Below, in pieces: positions 37,377 to 50,220 of a DNA stretch of 64,000 bases (positions are counted from its first letter, which is position 1; every line of letters starts with the position of its first letter). Position numbers and translations under genes: made by a program. The stretch comes from an uncultured Roseburia sp. GTDB lineage: Bacteria; Bacillota; Clostridia; Lachnospirales; Lachnospiraceae. The notes under the pieces were generated by a model. That model was not told the origin of the DNA. It was given only the letters and a program-made list of their open reading frames with translations, and did no database searches. The stretch lies in the NCBI GenBank assembly GCA_947642555.1, contig CANRSX010000001.1, positions 1 through 64,000 on the forward strand, read 5' to 3'.

Positions 37377-38906
37377 TTACAGCACGAAGAACGTGCAGGT
37401 GCCCGGCGCAAGCTCCACCGTCCCGGCGGCCTGCGTCACCGGATCAAGCGCCGGCAGGCTGTTATTCTCTCCGAGAACAAGCGGATTGCCATTTAAGGTC
37501 ATCACCGTCGCGCGGAGATTGCCGTTCTCACCGGAGAGCGTATAGCGTGCGGCATCCTTCGGCAGCTCCACGGACAGAGCCTCCGTTCTGGAATTGTTGA
37601 TCACCAGATACGCCGTCTTACCGTCCGCTCCCTTCGCGGAATGTGCGTAAACATGCGCCCCCTCACGAACCGGCTCATTCGTATCGTACACGGTCGTGCC
37701 CATCAGGCGGTTCCATAACAGCACCGCGAAATAATTCGGACGCGGATCAAATACTTCCCTGGCAAGGAAACCATAATCCGAGGAAGCCAGCGTATTGTGG
37801 AAGATCACGCCGTTTGTGACCGCTGCGAATCCGCCGAGCTCATTTAAGGTACGGATCACATCCAGGTAAGTGGACGCCCAGGTGTCTCCGCCGCCGCCCG
37901 CATCGCCGGACTCCGTCACCCACATCTCGCCGCCCGGGCAGTATTTATCGCGCATCGGCGCATAGAACTCTGCCATGTGCGGCGCTGTCCTTAAGTAGGC
38001 TTCCGTCGTCGCTTCCTCCGCCAGCCAGTGTCCGGACGGCATCACGGATGCGAGACGCTCGGAGATCCCGTTATAATAATGATAGCTGAATACGTCTAAC
38101 GGCTCGGTCGTACCTTCCATCAGCTCCGCACAGCTGCAGCTTTTAACGAGCTGCTCGACGCCGCCGGCTTTTCCTTCCCCGCCCTTTCCAAAATAAAGGC
38201 CTTTCTCTCCGCCGGTCGTGCTCGGTCCCACGCACAGGCAGTCCGGATAATTCGCCCTCAGCCATTTGAAAAACAGATCCTGATCGCGGCGGTAATGCTC
38301 CGGCGTATAGCCCTCCGGGAAGCCGGTCTCCTCCATCATGTTCGGCTCGTTTGTAAACTCGGCGGCATCAATCGGCACGCCGTATTCTTTGCTGAACGAG
38401 AACAGCTTCTCCGCCTCGGTCGGATGCCAGGGCTCCTCCGCGGAGTGAAGTCCCGGGCAGTTCGCCACAGAGACAAGCAGCTTCGCGCCGACCGCTTTGA
38501 CAAAATCAAGCACGCCGGTCCACTGCTCCTTTGTCAGCACGTTCAGATAGCCCTCCGGCACCTGCCCGTTTGTCGTCCCGTCAAAATCATAATAGGTCTT
38601 GGTCGCCCATGTGCCGGAAACACGCATCCACACCGGCCCTAATTCCTTCGCCAGGCTGCGCAGCTTCTCATTGTACAGATCGATCGGCGCGTAAACCTGC
38701 ATCAGATCCCTGTACATGGCCGTAATTCCCTCACTGGTCGCCTCCACGTAAAATTCCTCGGTCCCGGCGATCTGTCCCGGCGTGTACGCCTTCCAGAACG
38801 TTCCCCCTGTGACCTCCGCGAACTCCACGTTGTAGGACATCATTTTGGGATTGATCTCGCGCAGGGTCTTTAACCCGCCGGGCGCAAGTCTGATTGATTG
38901 AGACAT
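37377..38906 (-). CDS. GH79-like (heparanase/beta-glucuronidase) glycosidase, cytoplasmic
   Basis: 509 residues, without a signal peptide. The TIM barrel has the acid/base Glu in EFTNEPNMM (about residue 187) and the nucleophile Glu in MWVTESGDAGGGG (about residue 332); between them is DVFSYHYYNG. The region after it (NGVIFHNTLASSDYGFL then FDPRPNYFAVLLWNRLMGTTV) closely follows the pattern of human heparanase and bacterial GH79 enzymes, and a beta-sandwich ends the chain. I infer hydrolysis of imported uronate-containing oligosaccharides. The hexuronate genes beside it support this. A GH39 or GH30 assignment is the alternative. AAAGGGGGAAA precedes the ATG. Confidence 0.72.
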   Translation of the reverse strand: MSQSIRLAPGGLKTLREINPKMMSYNVEFAEVTGGTFWKAYTPGQIAGTEEFYVEATSEGITAMYRDLMQVYAPIDLYNEKLRSLAKELGPVWMRVSGTWATKTYYDFDGTTNGQVPEGYLNVLTKEQWTGVLDFVKAVGAKLLVSVANCPGLHSAEEPWHPTEAEKLFSFSKEYGVPIDAAEFTNEPNMMEETGFPEGYTPEHYRRDQDLFFKWLRANYPDCLCVGPSTTGGEKGLYFGKGGEGKAGGVEQLVKSCSCAELMEGTTEPLDVFSYHYYNGISERLASVMPSGHWLAEEATTEAYLRTAPHMAEFYAPMRDKYCPGGEMWVTESGDAGGGGDTWASTYLDVIRTLNELGGFAAVTNGVIFHNTLASSDYGFLAREVFDPRPNYFAVLLWNRLMGTTVYDTNEPVREGAHVYAHSAKGADGKTAYLVINNSRTEALSVELPKDAARYTLSGENGNLRATVMTLNGNPLVLGENNSLPALDPVTQAAGTVELAPGTCTFFVL

Positions 38907-39051: not shown

Positions 39052-40719
39052 CTACAGCGTCACGCCCTGCTTAAAGATCGCCATGTCGTGATATCCCGCC
39101 CGCTCGCTGCACACCTTTTCCCCGGAGGCGACGGAGAGCACATAGGAGAACAGCTGCTCTCCCGCCTCCGCGAGCGATGCCTCCTCCAGCACGACCCCCG
39201 CGTTAAAATCAATCCAGTTTTTCTTTTTCCCGGCCAGCGTGCCGTTGCTCGCGATTTTTACCGTGGGCACCGGCGAAGCGAACGGCGTGCCGCGCCCGGT
39301 GGTAAAGAGCACGATCTGCGCCCCGGATGCCGCGAGCGCGGTGGCGGCCACCAGGTCGTTGCCCGGCGCGGATAAAAGGTTCAGCCCGGCGGCCTGTACC
39401 CGCTCCCCGTAGGCGAGCACGCCAGAGACCGGGGCGGTTCCCGATTTCTGCGTGCAGCCTAAGGATTTGTCCTCGAGCGTCGTGATCCCGCCCTCCTTGT
39501 TGCCCGGGGACGGATTCTCGTAGATCGTCTGATGGTTGTCCATAAAATACTGCTTGAAATCGTTGATTAAGCTGACGGTCTCATGAAAGAGCTCCTCTGT
39601 CCGGCAGCGGTTCATCAGAAGCGTCTCCGCGCCGAACATCTCCGGCACCTCCGTTAAGATCGTCGTCCCGCCCTGTCCGATCAGAAGATCCGAGAAGCGC
39701 CCCACGAGCGGATTTGCCGTAATCCCGGAGAAGCCGTCGCTCCCCCCGCATTTTAAGCCGACGATCAGCTTTTCCGCCGGCACGCTCTCCCGGGTAAAGC
39801 CCGCCGCGTAGCGGATCAGCTCATCGAGCAGCGCCGCTCCCTGCGCCATCTCATCTTCACATTCCTGGCAGACGAGGAATCTGACACGACATTCGTCGTA
39901 ATCTCCGATATAGCGTTTCAGCTCCCCGATGCTGCTGTTCTCACAGCCGAGTCCCACGACCAGCACTCCCCCTGCGTTCGGATGGCGCACCAGGTCCGCG
40001 AGAATCGTGCGCGTGTGCTCCTGATCGTCGCCCATCTGCGAACAGCCGTACGGATGCGGAAAGGCGGCCACATCCTCCACGCTGCCCCGGATTCGTCCGC
40101 GGGCCTCCCTGGCCAGGGCTTCCGCGATTCCGTTGACGCACCCCACCGTGGGGATGACCCAGATCTCGTTGCGCACGCCCACGCTGCCGTCCGTGCGCAC
40201 AAAGCCCTGGAAGGTGGCGGCGGGCTTTGCGGCAGTAACCGGGCCGGCGGCATCGGCCGGGCCGGAGGCGCCGGGCTTTGCGGCATCGGCAGGGCCGGAG
40301 GCGGCGGGCTTTGCAGCATCGGCAGGGCCGGAGGCGGCAGGCTTTGCGGCATCGGCCTGCCGCACGCACGCCGCAGGCTCATAGACATACTCCGAGATCC
40401 CGTCAAGCGCGGTTTTCACATTGTGCACATGCACCCAGGCTCCGGCGGGAATCTCCTCCTTCGCGATACCGATGCGGGATCCGTATTTGACGACCTCCCC
40501 GCCGGCCGGGATCGCGGCGACCGCCAGCTTGTGTCCGGCCGGGATCCGCTCCCGCACCGTGATCCGGAGCTCTCCTGCCGCCTTTTTTTCTGTCCGATCG
40601 GTGGCATCGGCTTTGCTGCCGTCGGCCCTGGCCGGGATCACCAGCTCCTCGCCAGGCGCAAGCTCCCGCAGCGCCACAATCACATTATCCGTATCGTTTA
40701 TTCTGATATAATCCTTCAT
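39052..40719 (-). CDS. uxaA: Altronate dehydratase
   Basis: 555 residues; the family norm is about 495. It converts D-altronate to 2-keto-3-deoxygluconate. The N-terminal SAF-like domain (1-118) has IRINDTDNVIVALRELAPGE and IPAGHKLAVAAI. The catalytic part has RTDGSVGVRNEIWVIPTVGCVN, HPYGCSQMGDDQ, GLGCENSSIGELK, GLKCGGSDGFSGITANP and CTQKSGTAPVSGVL, giving the Cys/His metal site. Between them lies an insertion of about 50 residues built from 11-residue ADAAKPAASGP repeats. Start ATG 40719 has GGGGGAAG upstream. It follows uxaB by 22 bases. Confidence 0.94.
   Translation of the reverse strand: MKDYIRINDTDNVIVALRELAPGEELVIPARADGSKADATDRTEKKAAGELRITVRERIPAGHKLAVAAIPAGGEVVKYGSRIGIAKEEIPAGAWVHVHNVKTALDGISEYVYEPAACVRQADAAKPAASGPADAAKPAASGPADAAKPGASGPADAAGPVTAAKPAATFQGFVRTDGSVGVRNEIWVIPTVGCVNGIAEALAREARGRIRGSVEDVAAFPHPYGCSQMGDDQEHTRTILADLVRHPNAGGVLVVGLGCENSSIGELKRYIGDYDECRVRFLVCQECEDEMAQGAALLDELIRYAAGFTRESVPAEKLIVGLKCGGSDGFSGITANPLVGRFSDLLIGQGGTTILTEVPEMFGAETLLMNRCRTEELFHETVSLINDFKQYFMDNHQTIYENPSPGNKEGGITTLEDKSLGCTQKSGTAPVSGVLAYGERVQAAGLNLLSAPGNDLVAATALAASGAQIVLFTTGRGTPFASPVPTVKIASNGTLAGKKKNWIDFNAGVVLEEASLAEAGEQLFSYVLSVASGEKVCSERAGYHDMAIFKQGVTL
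40243..40371. repeat. 33-bp in-frame minisatellite in the uxaA interdomain linker
   Basis: Units start at about 40273, 40306 and 40339, with a further diverged copy near 40243. Each encodes 11 residues (ADAAKP-A/G-ASGP). It separates the SAF and catalytic domains. Confidence 0.9.
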
Positions 40720-40741
40720 ACTTCCCCCGCTTCCACGGCCA

Positions 40742-42205
40742 TCAGCCGAAATACTTTTCCAATGCCCCTCTCATGCCCAGGGTGCGGATATCCGTCAGAT
40801 ACAAAGCCACCGCCGCCTTTGCACCGGGAATCCATCTCAGGTCCTCACCCCAGAAGGCCTCGTTTGAAAGCACCGCCTCCGTATAGGCATCCACATGCTC
40901 TCCGCTGTGGGCCGCAAAGAATTCAAGCACCGCAGCGTCGTCCATGATCCGGTACTCTGCGCCGTCGCGGCTGCCGATTAAGGCCTTGTCACGGATTTCG
41001 GAGCCCGTGTAAAAGGCCATCAGCGCCGCGAGGGAAAAGGTCAGACGCTTTGGCAGCTTCCCCTCCTTTTTTGCATAGGAAAGAAAGCTGGGCATGCAGC
41101 GCGCGCGCCATTTGGAGACCGAATTCAGCGAGATGGACAGCAGGGCGTGCTTCACATAGGGATTGAAAAAGCGCGTGATCACTGCCTCTGCAAATTCCGC
41201 GAGATCCTCCTTCGGCAGGGTGAGGGTCGGAATCACCTCATCATAAATGGTTTTTTTCACAAAGGAGCAGATCAGCGGATCCTCCATGGACTCGAGCACC
41301 GTGTCGTGGCCGCACAGATATGACGCCAGGACAAAGGAGGTGTGCGCCCCGTTTAAAATACGCACCTTCCGCTGCTTGTAGGGCTTCTGGTTATCGGTAA
41401 AGATCACCGGCAGCCCCGCCTCCTTAAGCGGCAGCTCCCCACTGATATCCTTCGGGCTCTCGATCACCCACAGCGCAAAGGGCTCCCCGGTCACGATCAG
41501 CTGATCCTGATAGCCGAACTCCTCGCACAGCTGCTCTGCCTCATCCGCCGGATATCCGGTCACAATGCGATCCACAAGTGTAGACGTAAACACACAGGCC
41601 GTGTCCAGCCAGGAGAGGAAGCCTTCCGGCAGCTCCCACAGCGCCGCCAGCTTCTGCACGCATTCCCTCAGATGAATCCCGTTGTCGTCGATCAGCTCCA
41701 CCGGGAGAATGATCAGTCCCTTATCCGCCGCCCCGTCAAAATGACAGTATCTTTCATATAAAAACTTTGTCAGCTTTCCCGGATAGCTCTTCGGCGGGGT
41801 GAATTCCAGGCGATCCGTCTCATCATAGACAATCCCTGCCTCCGTGGTGTTTGACACGATAAAACGCAGCGTATCCAGCTTTGCATAGGACGCGTATTTC
41901 TCATATTCCGTGTAGGCGTCCACCGCGTCCGCCACGCTCGTCACGACACGGTTTATCCGCTCCGCCTTCCCGTCCACAATCCCGCGCAGCTGCACCGTAT
42001 ACTGGCATTCCTGGTCATGAAACCGGGTGAGGGACCCGAATTCAATCGGCTTTACCAGCACGACGTCGCCGTCGAACTTCCCCTGCTCATTGGCGATGTC
42101 GATCATGTAATCGACAAAGGCCCGCAGAAAATTTCCTTCCCCGAACTGCAACACGCGAACCGGCCTCTCCTTTTTTCCTGTCCGTGCCCTGTTTAAAACT
42201 TCCAT
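40742..42205 (-). CDS. uxaB: Tagaturonate reductase
   Basis: 487 residues, normal length. It reduces D-tagaturonate to D-altronate with NADH. It opens PVRVLQFGEGNFLRAFVDYMIDIANE, the NAD fold of the long-chain polyol dehydrogenases, and contains RFIVSNTTEAGIVYDE, ILPVELIDDNG and KVRILNGAHTSFV. These match UxaB rather than fructuronate reductase UxuB. AAGGAG precedes the ATG. The divergent promoter region to the LacI gene holds operator-like sites. Confidence 0.93.
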   Translation of the reverse strand: MEVLNRARTGKKERPVRVLQFGEGNFLRAFVDYMIDIANEQGKFDGDVVLVKPIEFGSLTRFHDQECQYTVQLRGIVDGKAERINRVVTSVADAVDAYTEYEKYASYAKLDTLRFIVSNTTEAGIVYDETDRLEFTPPKSYPGKLTKFLYERYCHFDGAADKGLIILPVELIDDNGIHLRECVQKLAALWELPEGFLSWLDTACVFTSTLVDRIVTGYPADEAEQLCEEFGYQDQLIVTGEPFALWVIESPKDISGELPLKEAGLPVIFTDNQKPYKQRKVRILNGAHTSFVLASYLCGHDTVLESMEDPLICSFVKKTIYDEVIPTLTLPKEDLAEFAEAVITRFFNPYVKHALLSISLNSVSKWRARCMPSFLSYAKKEGKLPKRLTFSLAALMAFYTGSEIRDKALIGSRDGAEYRIMDDAAVLEFFAAHSGEHVDAYTEAVLSNEAFWGEDLRWIPGAKAAVALYLTDIRTLGMRGALEKYFG

Positions 42206-42260
42206 TGTCCTGCTCCTTTCCCCGGGCGCTTTCTGCGCCGCAGACTCCCCTGACTGTTGA

Positions 42261-42274
42261 TGTAAATGCTTACA
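42261..42274. promoter_or_regulatory. cre-like/LacI-type operator at the uxaB start site
   Basis: The 14-base TGTAAATGCTTACA is a perfect palindrome and matches the CcpA cre consensus TGWAANCGNTNWCA with one mismatch. It sits just downstream of the uxaB -10 (42281-42286). Either CcpA or the local LacI protein could bind it. Confidence 0.65.
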
Positions 42275-42280
42275 TGGTTT

Positions 42281-42309
42281 ATTCTGACATCTTTTTGCGG
42301 ATTCGTCAA
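42281..42309 (-). promoter_or_regulatory. uxaB-uxaA promoter
   Basis: Minus-strand TTGACG (42304-42309) and CAGAAT (42281-42286), spaced by 17 bases. The start site falls at the edge of the palindrome 42260-42275. Confidence 0.6.
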
Positions 42310-42331
42310 TATCTATCTGAGAATTTGTCGG

Positions 42332-42360
42332 TTGCGTTTTCCCTGTTTTTTCAGTATAAT
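42332..42360 (+). promoter_or_regulatory. Promoter of the lacI-cyclase operon
   Basis: TTGCGT (42332-42337) and TATAAT (42355-42360) are spaced by 17 bases. Its spacer (TTTCCCTGTTTTTTCAG) resembles that of the uxaC promoter. Confidence 0.75.
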
Positions 42361-42371
42361 GGTGTTGATAG

Positions 42372-42385
42372 TGAAATCGCTTTCA
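42372..42385. promoter_or_regulatory. Perfect cre consensus over the lacI start site
   Basis: TGAAATCGCTTTCA matches the Bacillus CcpA cre consensus TGWAANCGNTNWCA at every position and is extended to a 16-bp palindrome (42371-42386). It begins 11 bases after the -10 hexamer, an ideal roadblock position. Confidence 0.75.
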
Positions 42386-42410
42386 CGTACTGCAGGTTTG
42401 GGAGGTTTGA

Positions 42411-43421
42411 ATGACGATTTACGATATTTCAGAAAAGGCCGGTGTGTCGATCGCCACCGTATCCCGGGTGTTAAACGGCAGCGCCAGGGTCAGCCCTGGC
42501 ACGCGGAAAAAGGTGCTGGAGGTGATCGAGGCCTGCGGCTATGCGCCGAATGCCTCTGCCCGCGGGATGGGGCTGCGCTCCTTGAGAACCATTGGAATTT
42601 TATGTGCGGACTCCTCCGATCTCTTTCTGGCGAAGGCCGTCTATTATCTGGAGCAGGAGCTTACGGCAAACGGATATGAATCGCTGCTCTGCTGCACCGG
42701 CTATCACCAGGAGGTGCGGCGCAGCTATATGGATCTGATTCTCTCGAAAAAGGTGGACAGCATCATTCTGGTGGGCTCCAATTTTATCGGGAGCACCGCC
42801 GATGAAAACCAGTATATCCGGGAGGCCTCCGCCCAGGTCCCCATCATGCTGTTAAACGCCGCCTGCGATGCTCCGAATGTGTACAGCATTCTCTGTGACG
42901 ACGCTGCCTCGATGTATGAGGCGGCCACCGCCATGCTGGATGCCGGGATCCGGGATATCCTGTATCTGTACAATTCCCTTTCCTACAGCGGTAGGAAAAA
43001 GCTGGACGGCTTTGCGGCGGCGATGCGGGATCACGGCGTAAACGGGTATGAGCAGCTGATTTACCGCTATTCGGGGGATCCGCAGCAGATGCGAGCGGTC
43101 ACGAATTTTGTGGCGGACGCGGCAGTGCATTCCCCGGCCTTTCACGGGGTGATCGCCTCGGAGGATCCCCTGGCCATCGGCGCCATGAAGTACGCCGCGC
43201 AGCGCGGGATCCAGATCCCCCGGGATCTCTCGGTCATCGGCTACAACAATTCCATGCTGGCCTCCTGCTGCACGCCGGAACTGACATCTGTCGATAACCG
43301 GCTGGAGGCCCAGTGCCATCAGCTGGTGCAGACGCTCCTTAGCGTGCTGGGCGGGGAGGAAATGCCCCGGAAGTCGGTCTTTTCCGGGAAGCTCATCCGA
43401 AGGGGAAGCACGGCATTTTAA
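42411..43421 (+). CDS. LacI-family transcriptional regulator (hexuronate locus)
   Basis: 336 residues. The N-terminal helix-turn-helix is MTIYDISEKAGVSIATVSRV and the hinge is SPGTRKKVLEVIEACGYAPNASARG. The rest is a periplasmic-binding-like sensor domain with SVIGYNNSMLASCCTPELTSV. GGGAGG precedes the ATG. Position opposite uxaB marks it as the probable uronate-responsive repressor. Only 26 bases, with no terminator, separate it from the cyclase gene, so the signalling genes should share its transcript. Confidence 0.92.
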   Translation: MTIYDISEKAGVSIATVSRVLNGSARVSPGTRKKVLEVIEACGYAPNASARGMGLRSLRTIGILCADSSDLFLAKAVYYLEQELTANGYESLLCCTGYHQEVRRSYMDLILSKKVDSIILVGSNFIGSTADENQYIREASAQVPIMLLNAACDAPNVYSILCDDAASMYEAATAMLDAGIRDILYLYNSLSYSGRKKLDGFAAAMRDHGVNGYEQLIYRYSGDPQQMRAVTNFVADAAVHSPAFHGVIASEDPLAIGAMKYAAQRGIQIPRDLSVIGYNNSMLASCCTPELTSVDNRLEAQCHQLVQTLLSVLGGEEMPRKSVFSGKLIRRGSTAF

Positions 43422-43447
43422 CATCAGAAGACCGACGGAGGGTAGTC

Positions 43448-45292
43448 ATGAAGAAAACGGAGGGGCGAAAACAACACGGTACAGCTAAAAATCTCTGGAA
43501 CAGACGAAAAATGGCGGCGCCCGCCTGTGCTTTTGCCGCGGCCGGGATGCTCACCCTCCTGGCGGGGTCGGGTCTTTTTGCCCGCACCGATCAGGCGGCC
43601 TGCGACGCGCTGTACCAGCATCCCTCCGCCACCGACGGGGAGGTCGTCATCATCGGCATTGACCAGAAATCCCTGGATGCCTACGGCCCGTATCAGGAGT
43701 GGTGCCGTGAGGGCGTCGCAAAAACCATCGACCTTTTAAACGCGGATCCAAACAGCCGCCCTGCGGCAATCGGCGTGGACGTGCTCTTCGGCGGCGGGAC
43801 AGACCCAGAGACGGATCAGGCCCTGGCCGCGGCCGCAGGACGCTGTGACAATGTGGTGACCGCCTGTGCCGCCGAATTTGACGAGGGCTTCGCGGAGACG
43901 GAGGGCGGCTTCATCCACAGCAGTTTTCTGCTGACCGCATTCGAGGAGCCCTTTCCGGCCTTAAGGGACGCGGCTGCCATGGGCCATATCAACGCCATGC
44001 TGGATCAGGACGGCATCCTGCGGCATCATCTTTTATCCTATGAGCTGCCGGACGGGACATATGTCCCATCTCTCGCTCTCGCCCTGGCAGAGATGTATCA
44101 GGATAAGCTGACCCTGCCGCCGGCGGACGCCCACGGCTTCTGGTATCTGCCCTACAGCAAGGTCCCCGGCGATTTTGAAATCCGCTCCATGGCCGATGTG
44201 CTGACCGGCCGTGATCCGGCGGGCTATTTCAAAGATAAAATCGTGCTGATCGGCCCCTGTGCGGCGGGCCTTCAGGACAGCTATCTCACGGCGATGGATC
44301 ACGCCCGGCCGATGTACGGCGTGGAATACCAGGCCAACGCGATCCAGGCGATGCTTTCCGGCAGTTACCGGCGCGAGGCAGGTAAAGGCCTCCAGCTCGC
44401 CCTGCTGTTTGTGATCCTCTGCGGCTCCTTCGCGGCCTTCTGGCGGCGCAGGGTCCGGGTATCCACCGCCATCTGGATCGCCCTGGGGGCGGGATGGGTA
44501 CTGCTGTGCCGCGGGCTGTATGAGGCGGGCTGGGTGCTCCATGTTCTCTGGGTCCCGGCGGGGGTCACCGTGCTCTATGCCGGATGCCTGGCGGCGAACT
44601 ATGTGCAGGCCGCGCTGGAGCGCCAGCGGGTGACCCGGACCTTCCGGCGGTATGTGGCGCCGGAAATTGTGACGGAGCTGCTTGCCGCCGGTCCAGGCGC
44701 TCTGATGCCCGGCGGAAGAAGATGTGACATTGCGGTGCTGTTTGTAGACATTCGCGGTTTTACCACCATGTCGGAACACCTGGAACCGGAAGAAGTGGTG
44801 GAGATTTTAAATCAGTACCTGACCCTGACCACGCAGTGCGTCATGAAGCACCACGGCACCCTGGATAAATTCGTGGGCGACTGTACCATGGCCTTCTGGA
44901 ACGCGCCGCTGCCCCGGGAGGACTATGTCATTCTGGCCTGCCGCGCGGCGATGGATATGGTAAATGCTGCGGCTCCCCTGGCAGAGCGGCTGCAGAAGGA
45001 GTATGGGCACAGCGTCTCCTTCGGCGTCGGCATCCATACCGGGCCCGCCGTGGTGGGAAATATCGGCGCGCCCATGCGCATGGACTACACCGCCATCGGC
45101 GACACCGTCAACACCGCCGCCAGGCTGGAGGCCAACGCCCCGGCCGGCACCATCTATATCTCCCGCGCCGTGGCCGATGCGCTGGCGGGACGGATCACCG
45201 CCACGCCACTTAAGGATCCGCCGCGGCTTAAAGGCAAGACCGCAGGCTTTGAGATCCTGACACTGGATGAGATCAAAGGAGAAGCACAATGA
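43448..45292 (+). CDS. CHASE2-domain class III adenylate cyclase
   Basis: 614 residues. A membrane segment near 22-46 leads into an extracellular CHASE2 sensor (about 47-310: DGEVVIIGIDQKSLDAYGPY, then AAIGVDVLFGGGTDPETD). Two or three membrane segments (about 315-380) and the cyclase domain (about 425-600) follow. Metal ligands are Asp434 (LFVDIRGFT) and Asp478 (KFVGDCTMAFW). Lys474 and Thr548 stand at the adenine-selecting positions in the Lys/Thr form known from CyaC-type enzymes, and Asn555 and Arg559 (GDTVNTAARLE) stabilise the transition state, so all catalytic residues are present. GGAGGG precedes the ATG. cAMP production is inferred; cGMP is less likely. Confidence 0.9.
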   Translation: MKKTEGRKQHGTAKNLWNRRKMAAPACAFAAAGMLTLLAGSGLFARTDQAACDALYQHPSATDGEVVIIGIDQKSLDAYGPYQEWCREGVAKTIDLLNADPNSRPAAIGVDVLFGGGTDPETDQALAAAAGRCDNVVTACAAEFDEGFAETEGGFIHSSFLLTAFEEPFPALRDAAAMGHINAMLDQDGILRHHLLSYELPDGTYVPSLALALAEMYQDKLTLPPADAHGFWYLPYSKVPGDFEIRSMADVLTGRDPAGYFKDKIVLIGPCAAGLQDSYLTAMDHARPMYGVEYQANAIQAMLSGSYRREAGKGLQLALLFVILCGSFAAFWRRRVRVSTAIWIALGAGWVLLCRGLYEAGWVLHVLWVPAGVTVLYAGCLAANYVQAALERQRVTRTFRRYVAPEIVTELLAAGPGALMPGGRRCDIAVLFVDIRGFTTMSEHLEPEEVVEILNQYLTLTTQCVMKHHGTLDKFVGDCTMAFWNAPLPREDYVILACRAAMDMVNAAAPLAERLQKEYGHSVSFGVGIHTGPAVVGNIGAPMRMDYTAIGDTVNTAARLEANAPAGTIYISRAVADALAGRITATPLKDPPRLKGKTAGFEILTLDEIKGEAQ

Positions 45293-46143
45293 ATGATACA
45301 TGGCAGATCACGGTCTGGGGCGTCCGGGGATCCTTCCCCATGCCGTCGCCGGACTATATGGAATACGGAGGGAACACCGTCTGTACCTCCCTGGAGCATG
45401 ACGGGCATATCGTCGTCCTGGACGCCGGAACGGGGCTCGCCTCCCTCGGCGCCACGCTGGCGGGAAAATCAGACATTCGTCGAATCGATATCCTGCTCAG
45501 CCATTTTCACATGGATCACCTGACCGGGCTGTATGCCTTCGCGCCCTTTTTCGATCCGAAGGCTAAGATCTGTCTGCACGGCGGGACGGGGCTTAAAGGT
45601 TATCTTTCCACCCTGACGGGCCCGCCCTTCTGGCCGGTGGGCATCGGGGATTACCCGGCCAGCCTTTCCTTCCACGAGATCGCGCCCGGGGATACCTTTG
45701 ACCTGGAAGGCATTGCCGTATCCACCATGGCGGGAAACCATCCGGGGGGCAGCATCCTCTTCCGGCTGGAGGGGACGGGAAAACGTCTGACCTGCGCCCT
45801 GGACTGCGAGACGGATGAAGCGGCCTTCCGGGAGCTGGCCGGTTTTGCCCGGGAAAGCGATCTGCTGATCTGGGACGCCAGCTTTACCGAATCCGACCTG
45901 CAACCCGGCTGGGGGCACTCCACCTGGAAGCAGGGCCTCGCCCTCGGCCGGGCCGCAAAGGTAAAACGGGTGCTGATGACGCATTACAGCAGAGAGTACA
46001 CGGACGAACTGCTGCGCCGGCAGGAGGCGCTGGCACGTTATTTTACAAATGACGTTTTAGTTCTGCTGACAGGATGTCATTCCCAGGCCGGGCAGGAGCC
46101 GGCCTGCATCTTTGCAAAGGAAGGGATGGTGATCACACTGTGA
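45289..46143 (+). CDS. Metallo-beta-lactamase-fold hydrolase, probable cyclic-nucleotide phosphodiesterase-like
   Basis: 284 residues, start overlapping the cyclase stop by four bases. It opens ITVWGVRGSFPMPSPDYMEYGGNT, typical of a PhnP/COG1235-like branch often found beside cyclases. The dinuclear site is complete: His72-x-His74-x-Asp76-His77 (SHFHMDH), His151 (GNHPGG), Asp172 (CALDCET) and His232 (MTHYS). Family relatives cleave phosphodiesters, including cyclic ones. The coupling to an adenylate cyclase suggests that it breaks down the cyclase product, but an unrelated substrate is possible. It is cytoplasmic, with no signal peptide. Confidence 0.82.
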   Translation: MNDTWQITVWGVRGSFPMPSPDYMEYGGNTVCTSLEHDGHIVVLDAGTGLASLGATLAGKSDIRRIDILLSHFHMDHLTGLYAFAPFFDPKAKICLHGGTGLKGYLSTLTGPPFWPVGIGDYPASLSFHEIAPGDTFDLEGIAVSTMAGNHPGGSILFRLEGTGKRLTCALDCETDEAAFRELAGFARESDLLIWDASFTESDLQPGWGHSTWKQGLALGRAAKVKRVLMTHYSREYTDELLRRQEALARYFTNDVLVLLTGCHSQAGQEPACIFAKEGMVITL

Positions 46144-47594
46144 CACAGGAAGAAATCAGAAAAATACTGAATGTGGGCGTGATGCTCTCCTCGGAGCGGG
46201 ATTTCAATAAACTCCTGGAGCAGATTTTATCCTCCGTGATGGAGCTGGCACACTGCGATGCCGGGACGCTCTATCTTTTGGACGGGGATGTGCTGCGCTT
46301 TCGCATTCTGCGCAACCACACGCTGCACACCTTTTCCGGCGGGGACGGCACGCTGCCGGATCTGCCCCCTGTCCCGCTGTCACCGGAAAATATGTGCGCG
46401 CGGGCGCTGCTGGAAAACCGCACGATCCATGTGGCGGACGTGACGAAAAGCCGGGATTATGATTTTTCCGGCGCCGCCCGGTATGACGCCATGACGGGCT
46501 ACCACACCCGCTCCATGCTGGCTGTCCCCATGCGAAACCGCTTCGGGGTTACCTTAGGCGTCTTACAGCTCATCAACGCCATGGATGAAGAGCGGCGGAT
46601 ACGGCCCTTCTCCGCGGAGATGAACCTGGTGCTGGAATCCGTCGCCTCCCAGGCCGCCATCACCATCCAGAATGTCCGCTATATCAGGGAAATCCAGGAG
46701 CTCTTCCGCTCCTTTGTCCGGGCCATGTCCTCCGCCATCGACGCCCGCAGCCCCTATAACGGCAGCCATACCAGGCACATGGCGGCTTACGGGGAACGGT
46801 TTCTCCGCTATCTGAATGCGCAGGACGCGGCGGAGGGAAAGGAGCCGTCCTTTCCTCCCCTCCGCAGGGAGGAGCTGCTGCTTGCTGTCTGGCTGCACGA
46901 CATCGGTAAGCTGGTGATCCCCCTGGAGGTGATGGACAAGCCGGCCAGACTGCTGCCAGAGCAGCATGACGCCTTCCTCCACCGCATGGAGATCATCCGT
47001 CTGCTGGGGGAGATCGACGTGCTCTCCGGGCGGCGCTCTGACGCGGCAGCGCTGATCCGGGAGACTAAGGAGGCGGAAGCGCTGGTGGAATCGGTCAATA
47101 CGGCAGGCTTCGTCCCGGATGAAGCCCTGGCTGCCATACAGGAGCTGGCCGCCCGGACCTACCGGGATCAGGCCGGGCAGGAGCAGCCCTGGCTGACAGA
47201 GGAGGAAGCCGCCATGCTCTCCATCCGGAAGGGCACCCTCTCCGAGGCGGAACGGGAGACCATCAGTTCCCACGTCGTCATGACGGATCAGCTGCTCTCT
47301 GAGATCCGTTTTTCAGCGGAGCTCTCCCACGTCCGGGAATGGGCGGCGGCCCACCATGAATTTTTAAACGGCAGCGGATACCCGAAGCATTCTTCCGGTG
47401 AGGAGATTCCCATGGAGGTCCGCATCCTGACGATCCTGGACATTTTTGACGCGCTGACAGCCGACGACAGGCCCTACAAGCCGGGAATGCCTGTGGAGCG
47501 GGCTCTCGGCGTGCTAAAGGAGATGGCGGAACGGGAGGGAAAGCTGGATCCCGGGCTGGTACGCGCTTTTACAGAAAGCCGCTGCTGGGAATAA
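46140..47594 (+). CDS. GAF plus HD-GYP-like phosphodiesterase
   Basis: 484 residues from GTG 46140, which overlaps the upstream stop (GTGA). The GAF domain covers about 1-175 (CDAGTLYLLDGDVLRFRIL, then MLAVPMRNRFGVTLGVLQLIN). The HD-GYP domain has His210 (GSHTRHM), His253-Asp254 (LHDIGK), His378 (SSHVVM), His405-His406 (AHHEFLNGSGYP) and LDIFDALTADDRPYK. These are the metal ligands of c-di-GMP phosphodiesterases. The spacing between HD and the next His is about 125 residues rather than the usual 25-30, so roughly 95 helical residues are inserted. Substrate may be c-di-GMP or another cyclic nucleotide. Confidence 0.85.
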   Translation: MTQEEIRKILNVGVMLSSERDFNKLLEQILSSVMELAHCDAGTLYLLDGDVLRFRILRNHTLHTFSGGDGTLPDLPPVPLSPENMCARALLENRTIHVADVTKSRDYDFSGAARYDAMTGYHTRSMLAVPMRNRFGVTLGVLQLINAMDEERRIRPFSAEMNLVLESVASQAAITIQNVRYIREIQELFRSFVRAMSSAIDARSPYNGSHTRHMAAYGERFLRYLNAQDAAEGKEPSFPPLRREELLLAVWLHDIGKLVIPLEVMDKPARLLPEQHDAFLHRMEIIRLLGEIDVLSGRRSDAAALIRETKEAEALVESVNTAGFVPDEALAAIQELAARTYRDQAGQEQPWLTEEEAAMLSIRKGTLSEAERETISSHVVMTDQLLSEIRFSAELSHVREWAAAHHEFLNGSGYPKHSSGEEIPMEVRILTILDIFDALTADDRPYKPGMPVERALGVLKEMAEREGKLDPGLVRAFTESRCWE

Positions 47595-47618
47595 GGGGGC
47601 TGCCATTCCGATTTTTCA

Positions 47619-47647
47619 TTGCGTTTCCCTTTTTCCTATTGTATAAT
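47619..47647 (+). promoter_or_regulatory. uxaC promoter
   Basis: TTGCGT (47619-47624) and TATAAT (47642-47647), spaced by 17 bases, with a pyrimidine-rich spacer like that of the lacI promoter. Confidence 0.7.
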
Positions 47648-47711
47648 ATCCCTGACCGGGCGCTTTTGTTTTCAGTGGAAGCGCCGTTGTCAGAATGATC
47701 AGCAAGGGGGT

Positions 47712-47746
47712 ACAGGCCTGTGTCCGTGCGGCGTCCGCGGGCCTGT
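47712..47746 (+). promoter_or_regulatory. Leader hairpin upstream of uxaC
   Basis: ACAGGCC (47712-47718) pairs with GGCCTGT (47740-47746), with GCGG/CCGC pairing inside. A second inverted repeat (GCGCTT...AAGCGC) lies just before it. The 190-base gap otherwise holds only the promoter and ribosome site; a role in regulation is possible but unproven. Confidence 0.4.
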
Positions 47747-47785
47747 CAGTCACAAAAGCCGCACAGAAACGGGGGAAAACATATC

Positions 47786-49201
47786 ATGAAACAATTTATG
47801 GGTGAGGATTTCTTACTGCAGACGCAGACAGCGCAGAATCTCTACCGCGATTTTGCGGCCGCTACGCCGATCCTCGACTATCACTGCCACATCAATCCGC
47901 AGGAAATCTACGAGGACAGGCAGTTCGAGAACATCACGCAGGTCTGGCTGGGCGGCGATCACTACAAGTGGCGCTTTATGCGTTCCTGCGGCGTGGAGGA
48001 GCGCTACATCACGGGCGACGCTTCCGACAAGGAGAAGTTTTTCAAATGGGCGGAGGTGCTCGGCAAGGCGATCGGCAACCCGCTCTACCACTGGAGCCAT
48101 CTCGAGCTGCAGAAGTATTTCAATTATCACGGCGCGCTCAGCAGAAAGACCGCGGAGGAGGTATGGGAGCTGTGCAACAAACGCCTCGCGGAACCGGATA
48201 TGTCGGTCCGCAACATCATCCGCCAGTCCAACGTCACCTTAATCTGCACCACGGACGACCCGGTGGATTCCTTAGAGTGGCACAAAAAGATCGCGGAGGA
48301 TACGACATTTGACGTGCAGGTGCTCCCGGCATGGCGTCCGGACAAGGCGATGAACATCGAGAAGGCAGCCTACTGCGACTATATCGCGCAGCTCTCGGAG
48401 GTATCCGGCGTCGCCATCGCCACGTTTGCGGATCTGTGCAAAGCGCTTTCCGTCCGCATGGATTTCTTTGATTCGATGGGCTGCTCCGTCTCCGACCACG
48501 GTCTGGAGTACGCGATGTATCAGCCTGCTTCCGCGGAGGAGGTTGAGGCGATTTTCGCAAAACGTCTCGCCGGAAACACGATCACCCGCGAGGAGGAGTT
48601 AAAGTTTAAGACTGCCTTTATGATCTTTGTCGGAAAAGAATACACGAAGCGCAACTGGGTGATGCAGCTCCACTACGGGTGCAAACGCGACAACAACACG
48701 CCGATGTTTGAAAAATTAGGCCCGGATACCGGATTTGACTGCATCAACAACTATGCGCCGTCCTCCGAGCTCGCGGACTACTTAAACGCGGTAAACCGTG
48801 ACGGAGGGCTTCCGAAGACGATCCTCTACAGCTTAAACCCGAACGACAACCAGGCGATCGGCACGATCTTAGGCTGCTTCCAGGATTCCTCGGCGGTTGC
48901 GAAGATCCAGCAGGGCTCCGGCTGGTGGTTTAACGATCACAAGACCGGTATGCAGGATCAGATGATCTCCCTGGCGAACTTAGGCAATCTCTCGGGCTTT
49001 GTCGGAATGCTGACCGACTCGAGAAGCTTCCTCTCCTACACAAGGCACGACTATTTCCGCAGGATTATGTGCAACCTGATCGGCGGATGGGTGGAGGACG
49101 GCGAGTTCCCGATGGATCTCGAGATCTTAGAGGAGATCGTAAAAGGAATCTGCTACAACAACGCCATCGGATATTTCGGATTTGATCTGAAGAAGGCGTA
49201 A
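47786..49201 (+). CDS. uxaC: Uronate isomerase
   Basis: 471 residues from ATG 47786 with GGGGGAAAA upstream; the open frame to 47720 runs through the leader hairpin and is rejected. It interconverts D-glucuronate and D-fructuronate, and D-galacturonate and D-tagaturonate. Motifs are ATPILDYHCHINPQEIY with the HxH metal site near residue 34, TTDDPVDSLEWH, and GMLTDSRSFLSYTRHDYFRR near the C-terminus. Codon use leans on TTA for Leu, which differs a little from its neighbours. Own promoter and terminator. Confidence 0.96.
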   Translation: MKQFMGEDFLLQTQTAQNLYRDFAAATPILDYHCHINPQEIYEDRQFENITQVWLGGDHYKWRFMRSCGVEERYITGDASDKEKFFKWAEVLGKAIGNPLYHWSHLELQKYFNYHGALSRKTAEEVWELCNKRLAEPDMSVRNIIRQSNVTLICTTDDPVDSLEWHKKIAEDTTFDVQVLPAWRPDKAMNIEKAAYCDYIAQLSEVSGVAIATFADLCKALSVRMDFFDSMGCSVSDHGLEYAMYQPASAEEVEAIFAKRLAGNTITREEELKFKTAFMIFVGKEYTKRNWVMQLHYGCKRDNNTPMFEKLGPDTGFDCINNYAPSSELADYLNAVNRDGGLPKTILYSLNPNDNQAIGTILGCFQDSSAVAKIQQGSGWWFNDHKTGMQDQMISLANLGNLSGFVGMLTDSRSFLSYTRHDYFRRIMCNLIGGWVEDGEFPMDLEILEEIVKGICYNNAIGYFGFDLKKA

Positions 49202-49258
49202 TCCTCTCCGGCATTACATGCCGTGACGAAGAACGGCATCCAGATGATGGGAACGTGA

Positions 49259-49295
49259 GACAGCCATGTGACGAATCACATGGCTGTCTTTTTTC
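49259..49295 (+). terminator. uxaC terminator
   Basis: GACAGCCATGTG (49259-49270) and CACATGGCTGTC (49277-49288) form a perfect 12-bp stem followed by TTTTTT. Confidence 0.95.
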
Positions 49296-49305
49296 GCAAA
49301 CTTTT

Positions 49306-49446
49306 CTAATCACAGCAGAACACATAGTAACCGGCCATCATACACGCCACGATCAGGATAAATCCGATGAGGCGGTTGTGGATCACAAGCATCACGAGCA
49401 TCCCCATGGAAAAACAGAACAGTGCAAAGCCAAGCATCCGCTTCAT
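49306..49446 (-). CDS. Tiny two-helix membrane protein
   Basis: 46 residues from ATG 49446. Two hydrophobic stretches (MLGFALFCFSMGMLVMLVI and GFILIVACMMAGYYVFCC) make it a small membrane hairpin. The ribosome site (GGGTGG) is weak. No family is recognised. It is the last frame of the leftward run after deoC. Confidence 0.45.
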   Translation of the reverse strand: MKRMLGFALFCFSMGMLVMLVIHNRLIGFILIVACMMAGYYVFCCD

Positions 49447-49530
49447 AAGACCACCCGGAAAAACAGATATCGTTATAATATATGCATTTCGCGGCGGATT
49501 TTGCCAGCGGATACGCATCTCACCGGCGGC

Positions 49531-50220
49531 TTACATGGCGCGCTTTAATTCTTCCACAATCGAGACGCTGGCGGTGGAGCCAATACGGCTCACTCCCATA
49601 TCAATCATCCGCAGCGCTGTCTTAAGATCCCGGATTCCCCCTGCCGCCTTGACCCTGATCCGTCCCTGCACCTCATCCAGCATCAGCTGCACATCCTCAA
49701 AGGTCGCTCCGCCCGTGCCAAAGCCGGTGGAGGTCTTAATATAGTCCGGCCTGATCTCCATGGCAATTCTGCACAGCGCGCGCTTTTCCTCCTCCGTCAG
49801 GTAGCAGTTTTCAAAAATAACCTTGCTGACGACCTGATGCCTGCGGCAGATACTTACAATACTGTCCATTTCGCGGCTGAGATAATCGTAGTTCTTTTCC
49901 TTTAACGCACCGATGTTTATCACATAATCGATCTCATCCGCACCATCCTCAATTGATTTTATGGTTTCCTGCAGCTTGATCTCAATTGCATTCTGCCCCA
50001 GCGGGAAATCGACGGCCGCCCCGACGTGAACGCCGGTTCCCTTTAAAAACTCTTTGCACATCGCCACCGGCGCCGGATTGACTGCAACCATTTTAAAATG
50101 ATACGCGGCGCTCTCCTCACAAAGAATTTTAAAATCCGCTTCCGTTGCATATGCCTTCAGCTGGGTATGATCAAAATAGCCTGCCAGTGATATTGGCGTC
50201 AGCTTCTGTCTTACTTCCAA
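49531..50220 (-). CDS. deoC: Deoxyribose-phosphate aldolase
   Basis: 229 residues from TTG 50220, which has GGAGGTGA upstream. It splits 2-deoxyribose-5-phosphate into acetaldehyde and glyceraldehyde-3-phosphate. The Schiff-base Lys is in RIRVKAAGGIRDLK near residue 195. Other marks are GAAVDFPLGQN and YIKTSTGFGTGGAT (second active-site Lys). It joins a peptide-use operon rather than a deo operon, though pdp elsewhere in the window could supply its pathway. Confidence 0.95.
   Translation of the reverse strand: MEVRQKLTPISLAGYFDHTQLKAYATEADFKILCEESAAYHFKMVAVNPAPVAMCKEFLKGTGVHVGAAVDFPLGQNAIEIKLQETIKSIEDGADEIDYVINIGALKEKNYDYLSREMDSIVSICRRHQVVSKVIFENCYLTEEEKRALCRIAMEIRPDYIKTSTGFGTGGATFEDVQLMLDEVQGRIRVKAAGGIRDLKTALRMIDMGVSRIGSTASVSIVEELKRAM

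Follow-up and report, generated by a model that had tools for sequence, protein, structure and literature searches.

In a 64,000-nucleotide stretch of DNA from an uncultured Roseburia sp. (family Lachnospiraceae; contig CANRSX010000001.1, positions 1 to 64,000; hereafter the window), the lacI and uxaC genes of a hexuronate operon are separated by a cassette of three genes, coding for a CHASE2 class III nucleotide cyclase, a metallo-beta-lactamase (MBL)-fold hydrolase and a GAF/HD-GYP protein. The three genes form a recurring, non-universal unit in a number of related gut bacteria. With moderate confidence, the window copy is interpreted as a clostridial cyclic-nucleotide cassette that is released by uronate through LacI and whose products make, degrade and read a signal. 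Signalling by cyclic AMP (cAMP) is usually held to matter little in clostridial gut bacteria. Class III cyclases are present in 40 of 200 genomes of the same family (own genome included; single copy in 36 of the 40), often beside candidate breakdown enzymes, which suggests a common and testable cyclic-nucleotide circuit and contradicts the statement, in a preliminary description of this DNA, that such cyclases are uncommon in gut Firmicutes. The copy in the uronate operon would offer an inducible form provided by nature: since the cassette stands there between the repressor gene and that gene's usual neighbour uxaC, the signal may be switched by a sugar acid, and a second messenger would be under the control of a sugar acid from the diet should hexuronate increase transcription of the cassette. 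The genes concerned are the following.

42411..43421, + strand: lacI, whose product is predicted to repress the uxa (hexuronate) locus (LacI and Peripla_BP_3 above the Pfam cut-off; position of homologues before uxaC)
43448..45292, + strand: CHASE2 class III nucleotide cyclase, predicted adenylate cyclase (Pfam and catalytic residues)
45289..46143, + strand: MBL-fold (Lactamase_B_2) hydrolase, predicted cyclic mononucleotide phosphodiesterase (Pfam, motif and cyclase linkage)
46140..47594, + strand: GAF and HD-GYP protein, predicted cyclic-dinucleotide phosphodiesterase with GAF sensor (Pfam and HD-GYP residues)
47786..49201, + strand: uxaC, glucuronate isomerase, the gene that usually follows lacI in relatives (Pfam/NCBIfam)

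The stop codon of lacI is separated from the cyclase start by 26 bp that include a GGAGG ribosome site, and the cassette genes are joined by 4-base overlaps (ATGA at the cyclase/MBL, GTGA at the MBL/GAF-HD-GYP junction). The open reading frame list, inspection of the junctions and Pfam thus agree with the four frames, the gap and the two overlaps of the preliminary description. The GAF/HD-GYP frame is listed from an upstream ATG at 46074; GTG 46140 is preferred as start, because the aligned relatives favour it.

The grouping of the three genes exceeds chance, since the same neighbours recur beside homologous cyclases. The survey covered 80 cyclase loci of named records and 40 unnamed regions, with flanks of at most ~10 kb and often shorter, and neighbours were counted at a coverage of at least 70 % within 10 kb. 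Of the named loci, 34 have a full-length GAF/HD-GYP gene, 21 have MBL, 17 have the two together and 33 have a FecR match; an earlier count, which took every match at E 1e-6 with short ones included, had GAF/HD-GYP at 39 of the 80. The 35 named loci flanked by 8 kb or more on each side yielded 16 GAF/HD-GYP, 11 MBL and 23 FecR cases, the 40 unnamed regions 25, 14 and 21, respectively. Across 250 same-family genomes (own included), MBL occurs in 18 and GAF/HD-GYP in 38. Of the places counted, 15 of 19 for MBL and 26 of 39 for GAF/HD-GYP lie within 10 kb of a cyclase (count based on the strongest 42 of 62 cyclase places, "no cyclase" meaning none among those 42); the neighbourhood search proposed for MBL with CHASE2 cyclases thus has a positive outcome. 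Among the four MBL places away from a cyclase, two belong to genomes with a cyclase on another contig (G006, G048) and two to short contigs in genomes without a listed cyclase (G063, G168), while four of the 13 such GAF/HD-GYP places are fusions of CHASE2 to the HD domain (see below). Over 18 loci, the distances of the three cassette proteins correlate (r 0.76, 0.66 and 0.78; 0 of 5000 permutations as high), a correlation that shared species history could explain in part. The nearest complete cassettes among these loci are L120 (61 % identity for the cyclase, 55 % for MBL, 66 % for GAF/HD-GYP) and L097 (58, 55 and 68 %). Gene order varies among the 17 loci that hold both partners: in 13, the cyclase comes last, preceded by MBL and GAF/HD-GYP (FecR in between in five), three have the window-like order with both after it (L112, L120 and L161, the last from Fusibacter ferrireducens) and one is mixed. 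Two observations weigh against a fixed unit. A full-length MBL match within 10 kb is missing at 59 of the 80 named loci (24 of the 35 with flanks of at least 8 kb), and around the most similar cyclase found (63 %, L094) both MBL and GAF/HD-GYP are missing for ~10 kb. The mapping also extended to the surroundings of some same-genus cyclase matches and to a few further places, none of which enters these counts.

Further genes were observed near the named cyclases. Matches to a TIM-barrel (xylose-isomerase-like) gene occur at 19 of the 80 loci (e.g. L052:12754-13539), often between the cyclase and GAF/HD-GYP genes, and matches to an NHL-repeat protein at 13. The FecR-type proteins range from ~400 to ~1600 residues and have variable outer parts (L224:16167-17372, L036:3703-7611, L112:5224-10002).

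Both domains of the cyclase score well above their Pfam cut-offs (CHASE2 149.1 against 26.3 bits, Guanylate_cyc 88 against 21.9 bits). Six catalytic positions (D434, K474, D478, T548, N555, R559) are invariant in all 20 aligned cyclases, i.e. the window protein and 19 of 29 fetched relatives; six of the remainder were dropped for a stop inside the match and four (L023, L026, L029, L031) without special reason. The completeness of the catalytic residues, as first described, is thereby upheld, and a dead cyclase was rejected. D434/D478 are taken to be the metal-binding Asp pair, N555/R559 the transition-state Asn/Arg and K474/T548 the ATP-type Lys/Thr pair. Because this pair is of the ATP type, the protein is predicted to be an adenylate cyclase forming cAMP from ATP. 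It accounts for the only PF00211 (class III cyclase) match in the whole genome, which comprises 4.99 Mb in 88 contigs.

The MBL protein matches Lactamase_B_2 (PF12706) with 66.6 bits, above the Pfam cut-off. Its likely metal-binding residues (H72, H74, D76, H77, H151, D172, H232) are invariant in 26 of 26 aligned proteins, the alignments of MBL and of GAF/HD-GYP being hand-picked sets of 26 each. RNase Z-type proteins carry a similar HxHxDH-type motif, and the [T/S]HxHxDH motif is therefore not discriminating. The window protein has it in the form SHFHMDH and, with PF12706, shows both elements of the signature given for atypical class II phosphodiesterases in the accessible part of the source (PMC9293780). 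The NCBIfam model of a cyclic-nucleotide phosphodiesterase, NF041851, is matched by 25 of the 26 aligned proteins (best E 1.9e-19). Solved structures matching the family profile include the cyclic-mononucleotide phosphodiesterases YhfI (6kns) and Apyc1 (7u2s). Association of MBL with cyclases and with genes for proteins combining a cyclic nucleoside monophosphate (cNMP)-binding domain with PP2C favours a cyclic mononucleotide as substrate: at L131 a cNMP-binding/PP2C protein, MBL, cyclase and FecR protein stand in one row, and at L217 and L219 MBL adjoins the cNMP-binding/PP2C gene. Against this count the higher score of the window protein on the Ribonuclease Z model (TIGR02651, 68.8 bits; equivalog cut-off 292.95) than on NF041851 (49.9 bits; equivalog cut-off 400), both below cut-off, and the matching of all 26 family members by RNase Z models. 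As these models match throughout and the top structural match is an RNase Z, the cyclic mononucleotide phosphodiesterase remains a candidate assignment. That the protein is instead another phosphodiesterase, e.g. RNase Z-like, and does not break down the cyclase product is regarded as unlikely in view of its gene neighbours. A housekeeping RNase Z was rejected, since a gene on contig C82 passes the RNase Z cut-off (308.5 bits). Plasmid-borne MBL relatives (245 records, mostly rhizobial, all below 60 % identity) were set aside.

The third protein matches GAF (56.2 bits) and HD_5 (103.5 bits) above the Pfam cut-off. HD-GYP domains follow the pattern H...HD..K...H...HHE...GxGYP...D, and the corresponding residues (H210, H253, D254, K257, H378, H405, H406, E407, G411, G413-Y414-P415, D434) are invariant in 26 of 26 aligned proteins. 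A long insert, ~90 residues by eye, separates the HD pair from the histidine that follows. Structure matches comprise 4mcw, which we take to be a Persephonella HD-GYP phosphodiesterase, over the GAF domain and the start of the HD part, and 5z7c (3'3'-cyclic GMP-AMP (cGAMP) phosphodiesterase 3) over the HD-GYP core; from both, the window protein differs by its insert and by being co-encoded with a mononucleotide cyclase. The GAF profile matches GAF domains of PDE5 (E 7.8e-29) and of an adenylate cyclase (1ykd). GAF domains binding cNMPs carry the NKFDE motif, which is missing from the window GAF (it retains N and F and lacks K, D and E), a point against cyclic-nucleotide reading by this domain. 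The likeness to the PDE5 GAF and the presence of GAF/HD-GYP without an MBL match at some cyclase loci would fit a protein that is itself a cyclic mononucleotide phosphodiesterase, like animal GAF phosphodiesterases, with MBL in a second role; considering that the HD part has the full HD-GYP signature and matches the 3'3'-cGAMP phosphodiesterase and bacterial HD-GYP structures, and that the best stretches listed for animal phosphodiesterase chains fall in the GAF part, this is very improbable. All four tested proteins of the following list, each a single protein of 680-704 residues, fuse CHASE2 directly to the HD type of the cassette.

L225:419-2467, CHASE2-HD fusion
L226:657-2711, CHASE2-HD fusion
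L227:604-2718, CHASE2-HD fusion
L228:613-2655, CHASE2-HD fusion

The position in the uronate locus was compared with LacI neighbourhoods at 20 of 65 places besides the window (the 18 strongest plus G161 and G111; a 21st pair, L222 in G006, is uncounted). UxaC follows directly after LacI in 15 of the 20, with ~20-85 bp between match ends (L186, L187, L191, L192, L193, L195-L198, L200-L205); of the others, L194 and L189 have UxaC arranged otherwise, and L188, L190 and L199 are without UxaC in reach. The locus of the best LacI match (L186, 69 %) reads uxaA (-), uxaB (-), lacI (+), uxaC (+), with ~25 bp from lacI to uxaC. None of the 20 contains cyclase, MBL or GAF/HD-GYP, and in the genomes G111 and G006 the lacI-uxaC pair coexists with cassette genes on other contigs. 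In the window, this adjacency is interrupted by the cassette and the operator-like sites are retained, for which insertion of the cassette between lacI and uxaC is the simplest reading. The G+C content at third codon positions is the same for cassette genes (0.73-0.77) as for lacI and the uxa genes (0.72-0.78); a recent foreign island was rejected on this ground, and the agreement also counts against the favoured interpretation. The remaining genes of the locus are as follows.

40742..42205, - strand: uxaB, tagaturonate reductase, divergent from lacI (Pfam/NCBIfam)
39052..40719, - strand: uxaA, predicted altronate dehydratase (galactarate/altronate dehydratase domains, Pfam)

Adjoining uxaA, a 509-residue protein (37377-38906, - strand) goes unmatched in Pfam and NCBIfam at E 0.001 and may, by eye, be a glycoside hydrolase.

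Control elements ahead of lacI and uxaC were located as follows.

42261..42274, no strand: operator-like LacI-family palindrome TGTAAATGCTTACA, nearer to uxaB within the divergent promoter region, one mismatch to TGWAANCGNTNWCA
42372..42385, no strand: operator-like LacI-family palindrome TGAAATCGCTTTCA, just 3' of the putative -10 box of lacI, perfect match to the LacI/CcpA consensus
42332..42360, + strand: putative promoter of lacI and cassette, TTGCGT-17-TATAAT (inspection)
47619..47647, + strand: putative separate uxaC promoter, TTGCGT-17-TATAAT, same hexamers as ahead of lacI

Within 450 bp upstream of lacI, at least one operator-like site is found in 18 of the 20 relatives and at least two in 13, as against one or more in 2.5 % of shuffled sequences; the pattern was written after viewing the upstream regions of seven relatives, the misses (L189, L192) are counted, and the 450-bp windows may include coding sequence or be shorter (33 bp in L192, 356 bp in L195). 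From the position of the sites and their conservation in relatives, with the cassette 26 bp behind, lacI and cassette probably answer to LacI. Expression of the cassette would then probably increase with uronate, as two palindromic operators of the kind present in most relatives remain ahead of lacI. The consensus fits CcpA sites too and is not clearly enriched across the window (6 matches versus 2.61 expected; 8 of 100 shuffles reach 6), both of which weaken this assignment. The 191 bp between cassette and uxaC (47595-47785) contain no operator match. TTGCGT-17-TATAAT matches nowhere in the window except at these two putative promoters, against an expectation of 0.11 if one mismatch is allowed; the pattern was itself derived afterwards from the two sites. 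A promoter scan listed no + strand site from the lacI start to the cyclase start and one at 46140-46168; it is not sensitive, since it also missed the putative lacI promoter. A terminator scan of 40000-50000 gave 7 sites versus 8.6 expected; none falls in the 26-bp gap. Three + strand sites occupy 43513-43572, within the first part of the cyclase gene, and another site lies at 46016. The claimed co-transcription with lacI is consistent with this gap and with the operators kept in most relatives, and neither a terminator nor, by the insensitive scan, a promoter was found ahead of the cyclase. For the stretch between cassette and uxaC, a riboswitch and a structured leader were both rejected (no Rfam match at gathering score in 42000-48000; fold no better than shuffles, z 0.17).

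Elsewhere the uronate connection does not recur. No LacI, UxaA or UxaC match lies near the 80 named cyclase loci within the flanks surveyed, the sole Uxa-type match being a weak one to UxaB (23 %, L113); the 40 unnamed cyclases have no UxaA/B/C match and one distant LacI (26 %, L035) nearby. L035 was rejected as a second lacI-controlled cassette, its LacI being divergent, with an operator-like site ~300 bp from the MBL gene and a promoter-like stretch closer. Judged by the criterion of the preliminary description itself, conserved linkage in relatives, the cassette of possible maker, breaker and sensor holds up, and its tie to uronate does not. Alternatively, the cassette may have landed in a permissive, transcribed site, with a job unrelated to uronate and lacI transcription merely giving a promoter. 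Varying neighbours, the absence of uxaC near the 80 named and 40 unnamed cyclases, varying cassette order and a candidate promoter of its own for uxaC would suit this possibility; it is nevertheless held to be less than probable, because the 26-bp gap and ribosome site make the cyclase part of the lacI transcript and the operator-like sites have been retained. Moreover, a chance insertion, too, would probably leave the cassette uronate-inducible.

Under the favoured interpretation of a uronate-released cassette, hexuronate or a catabolite would release LacI, and the lacI promoter would then transcribe lacI together with the cassette, uxaC being served by its own candidate promoter. The membrane cyclase is predicted to sense an envelope cue via CHASE2 and to make cAMP, which the MBL enzyme would degrade, thereby resetting the signal. 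The GAF/HD-GYP protein would read that signal or another small ligand and hydrolyse a cyclic dinucleotide, most likely cyclic di-GMP (c-di-GMP), because the genome has six GGDEF matches. The genome further holds three cNMP_binding matches and one FecR match; the latter, on contig C31, is of the cassette type, sharing 41 % of 236 aligned positions with the FecR protein in the cassette at L035. Receptors of cNMPs usually display a phosphate-binding cassette, the motif by which the three proteins were judged. By eye, none of the three shows it, which weighs against a cAMP circuit of usual type: no canonical cAMP effector is thus recognised in the genome, and the GAF domain of the HD-GYP protein becomes the best local candidate. 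The cNMP-binding proteins beside the cyclases of relatives are clear Pfam matches.

More tentatively, the cassette could be a self-contained converter, in which the cyclase makes a cyclic mononucleotide, GAF reads it, HD-GYP shifts c-di-GMP or cGAMP and MBL resets the system. If this somewhat doubtful proposal were true, a number of Lachnospiraceae would have cAMP signalling without a Crp-type receptor, the uronate repressor would let food type set the gain of the circuit in the window, and the CHASE2-HD fusions would represent a shortcut, the sensor driving HD-GYP directly.

Other candidate readers were noted at further cyclase loci. At L054, L056, L059 and L062 (also L133 and L134), a CHASE2 cyclase lies near homologues of cNMP-binding/PP2C, HATPase, STAS and GGDEF proteins (Pfam check for L056); the set resembles the SiaABCD partner-switching module, with a cyclic-nucleotide sensor on the phosphatase. 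A cNMP-binding and DUF2225 protein (L063:4119-5264, - strand) in another CHASE2 cyclase region is a further candidate cyclic-nucleotide effector.

In the open literature, no report pairing CHASE2 with metallo-beta-lactamase was found, subscription papers being mostly outside the search. Likewise, it yielded no report on a CHASE2 cyclase in Clostridi- taxa or on a clostridial cassette, and none linking uronate, LacI, UxaC and Lachnospiraceae or placing the cassette in a uronate locus. The earlier statement that no system of such layout has been described is nonetheless too strong, because a gene cluster of CHASE2 adenylate cyclase, cAMP phosphodiesterase, FecR and TPR protein is published for Campylobacterota, for which the accessible text proposes horizontal transfer (PMC9239204). 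This is the closest published system, as far as that text describes it. It shares with the clostridial loci a CHASE2 class III cyclase accompanied by a candidate phosphodiesterase and, at 33 of the 80 named loci, by a FecR match; in the window, the candidate breaker is an MBL protein, and differences lie in having GAF/HD-GYP in the unit and FecR on another contig, and in the uronate-operon site. In Sinorhizobium meliloti, according to the portions available of PMC5498481 and PMC13001267, CHASE2 cyclases such as CyaD1 respond to an outside signal by making cAMP, which is read by Clr, and a FecR-domain protein is among the Clr targets; the genome of the window shares the CHASE2 cyclase and differs in having no recognised canonical cNMP receptor. 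The atypical class II phosphodiesterases Rv1339, YhfI, CpdA and phage Apyc1 (PMC9293780, PMC9117128) have PF12706 and [T/S]HxHxDH in common with the window MBL, which in contrast is cyclase-linked and below the NF041851 cut-off; the accessible text on them mentions no CHASE2 link. The Burkholderia BiofilmReg operon likewise places a CHASE2 sensor protein next to a FecR protein, but there CHASE2 belongs to a histidine kinase with response regulator, and no cyclase is noted in the part of the source available (PMC5192318).

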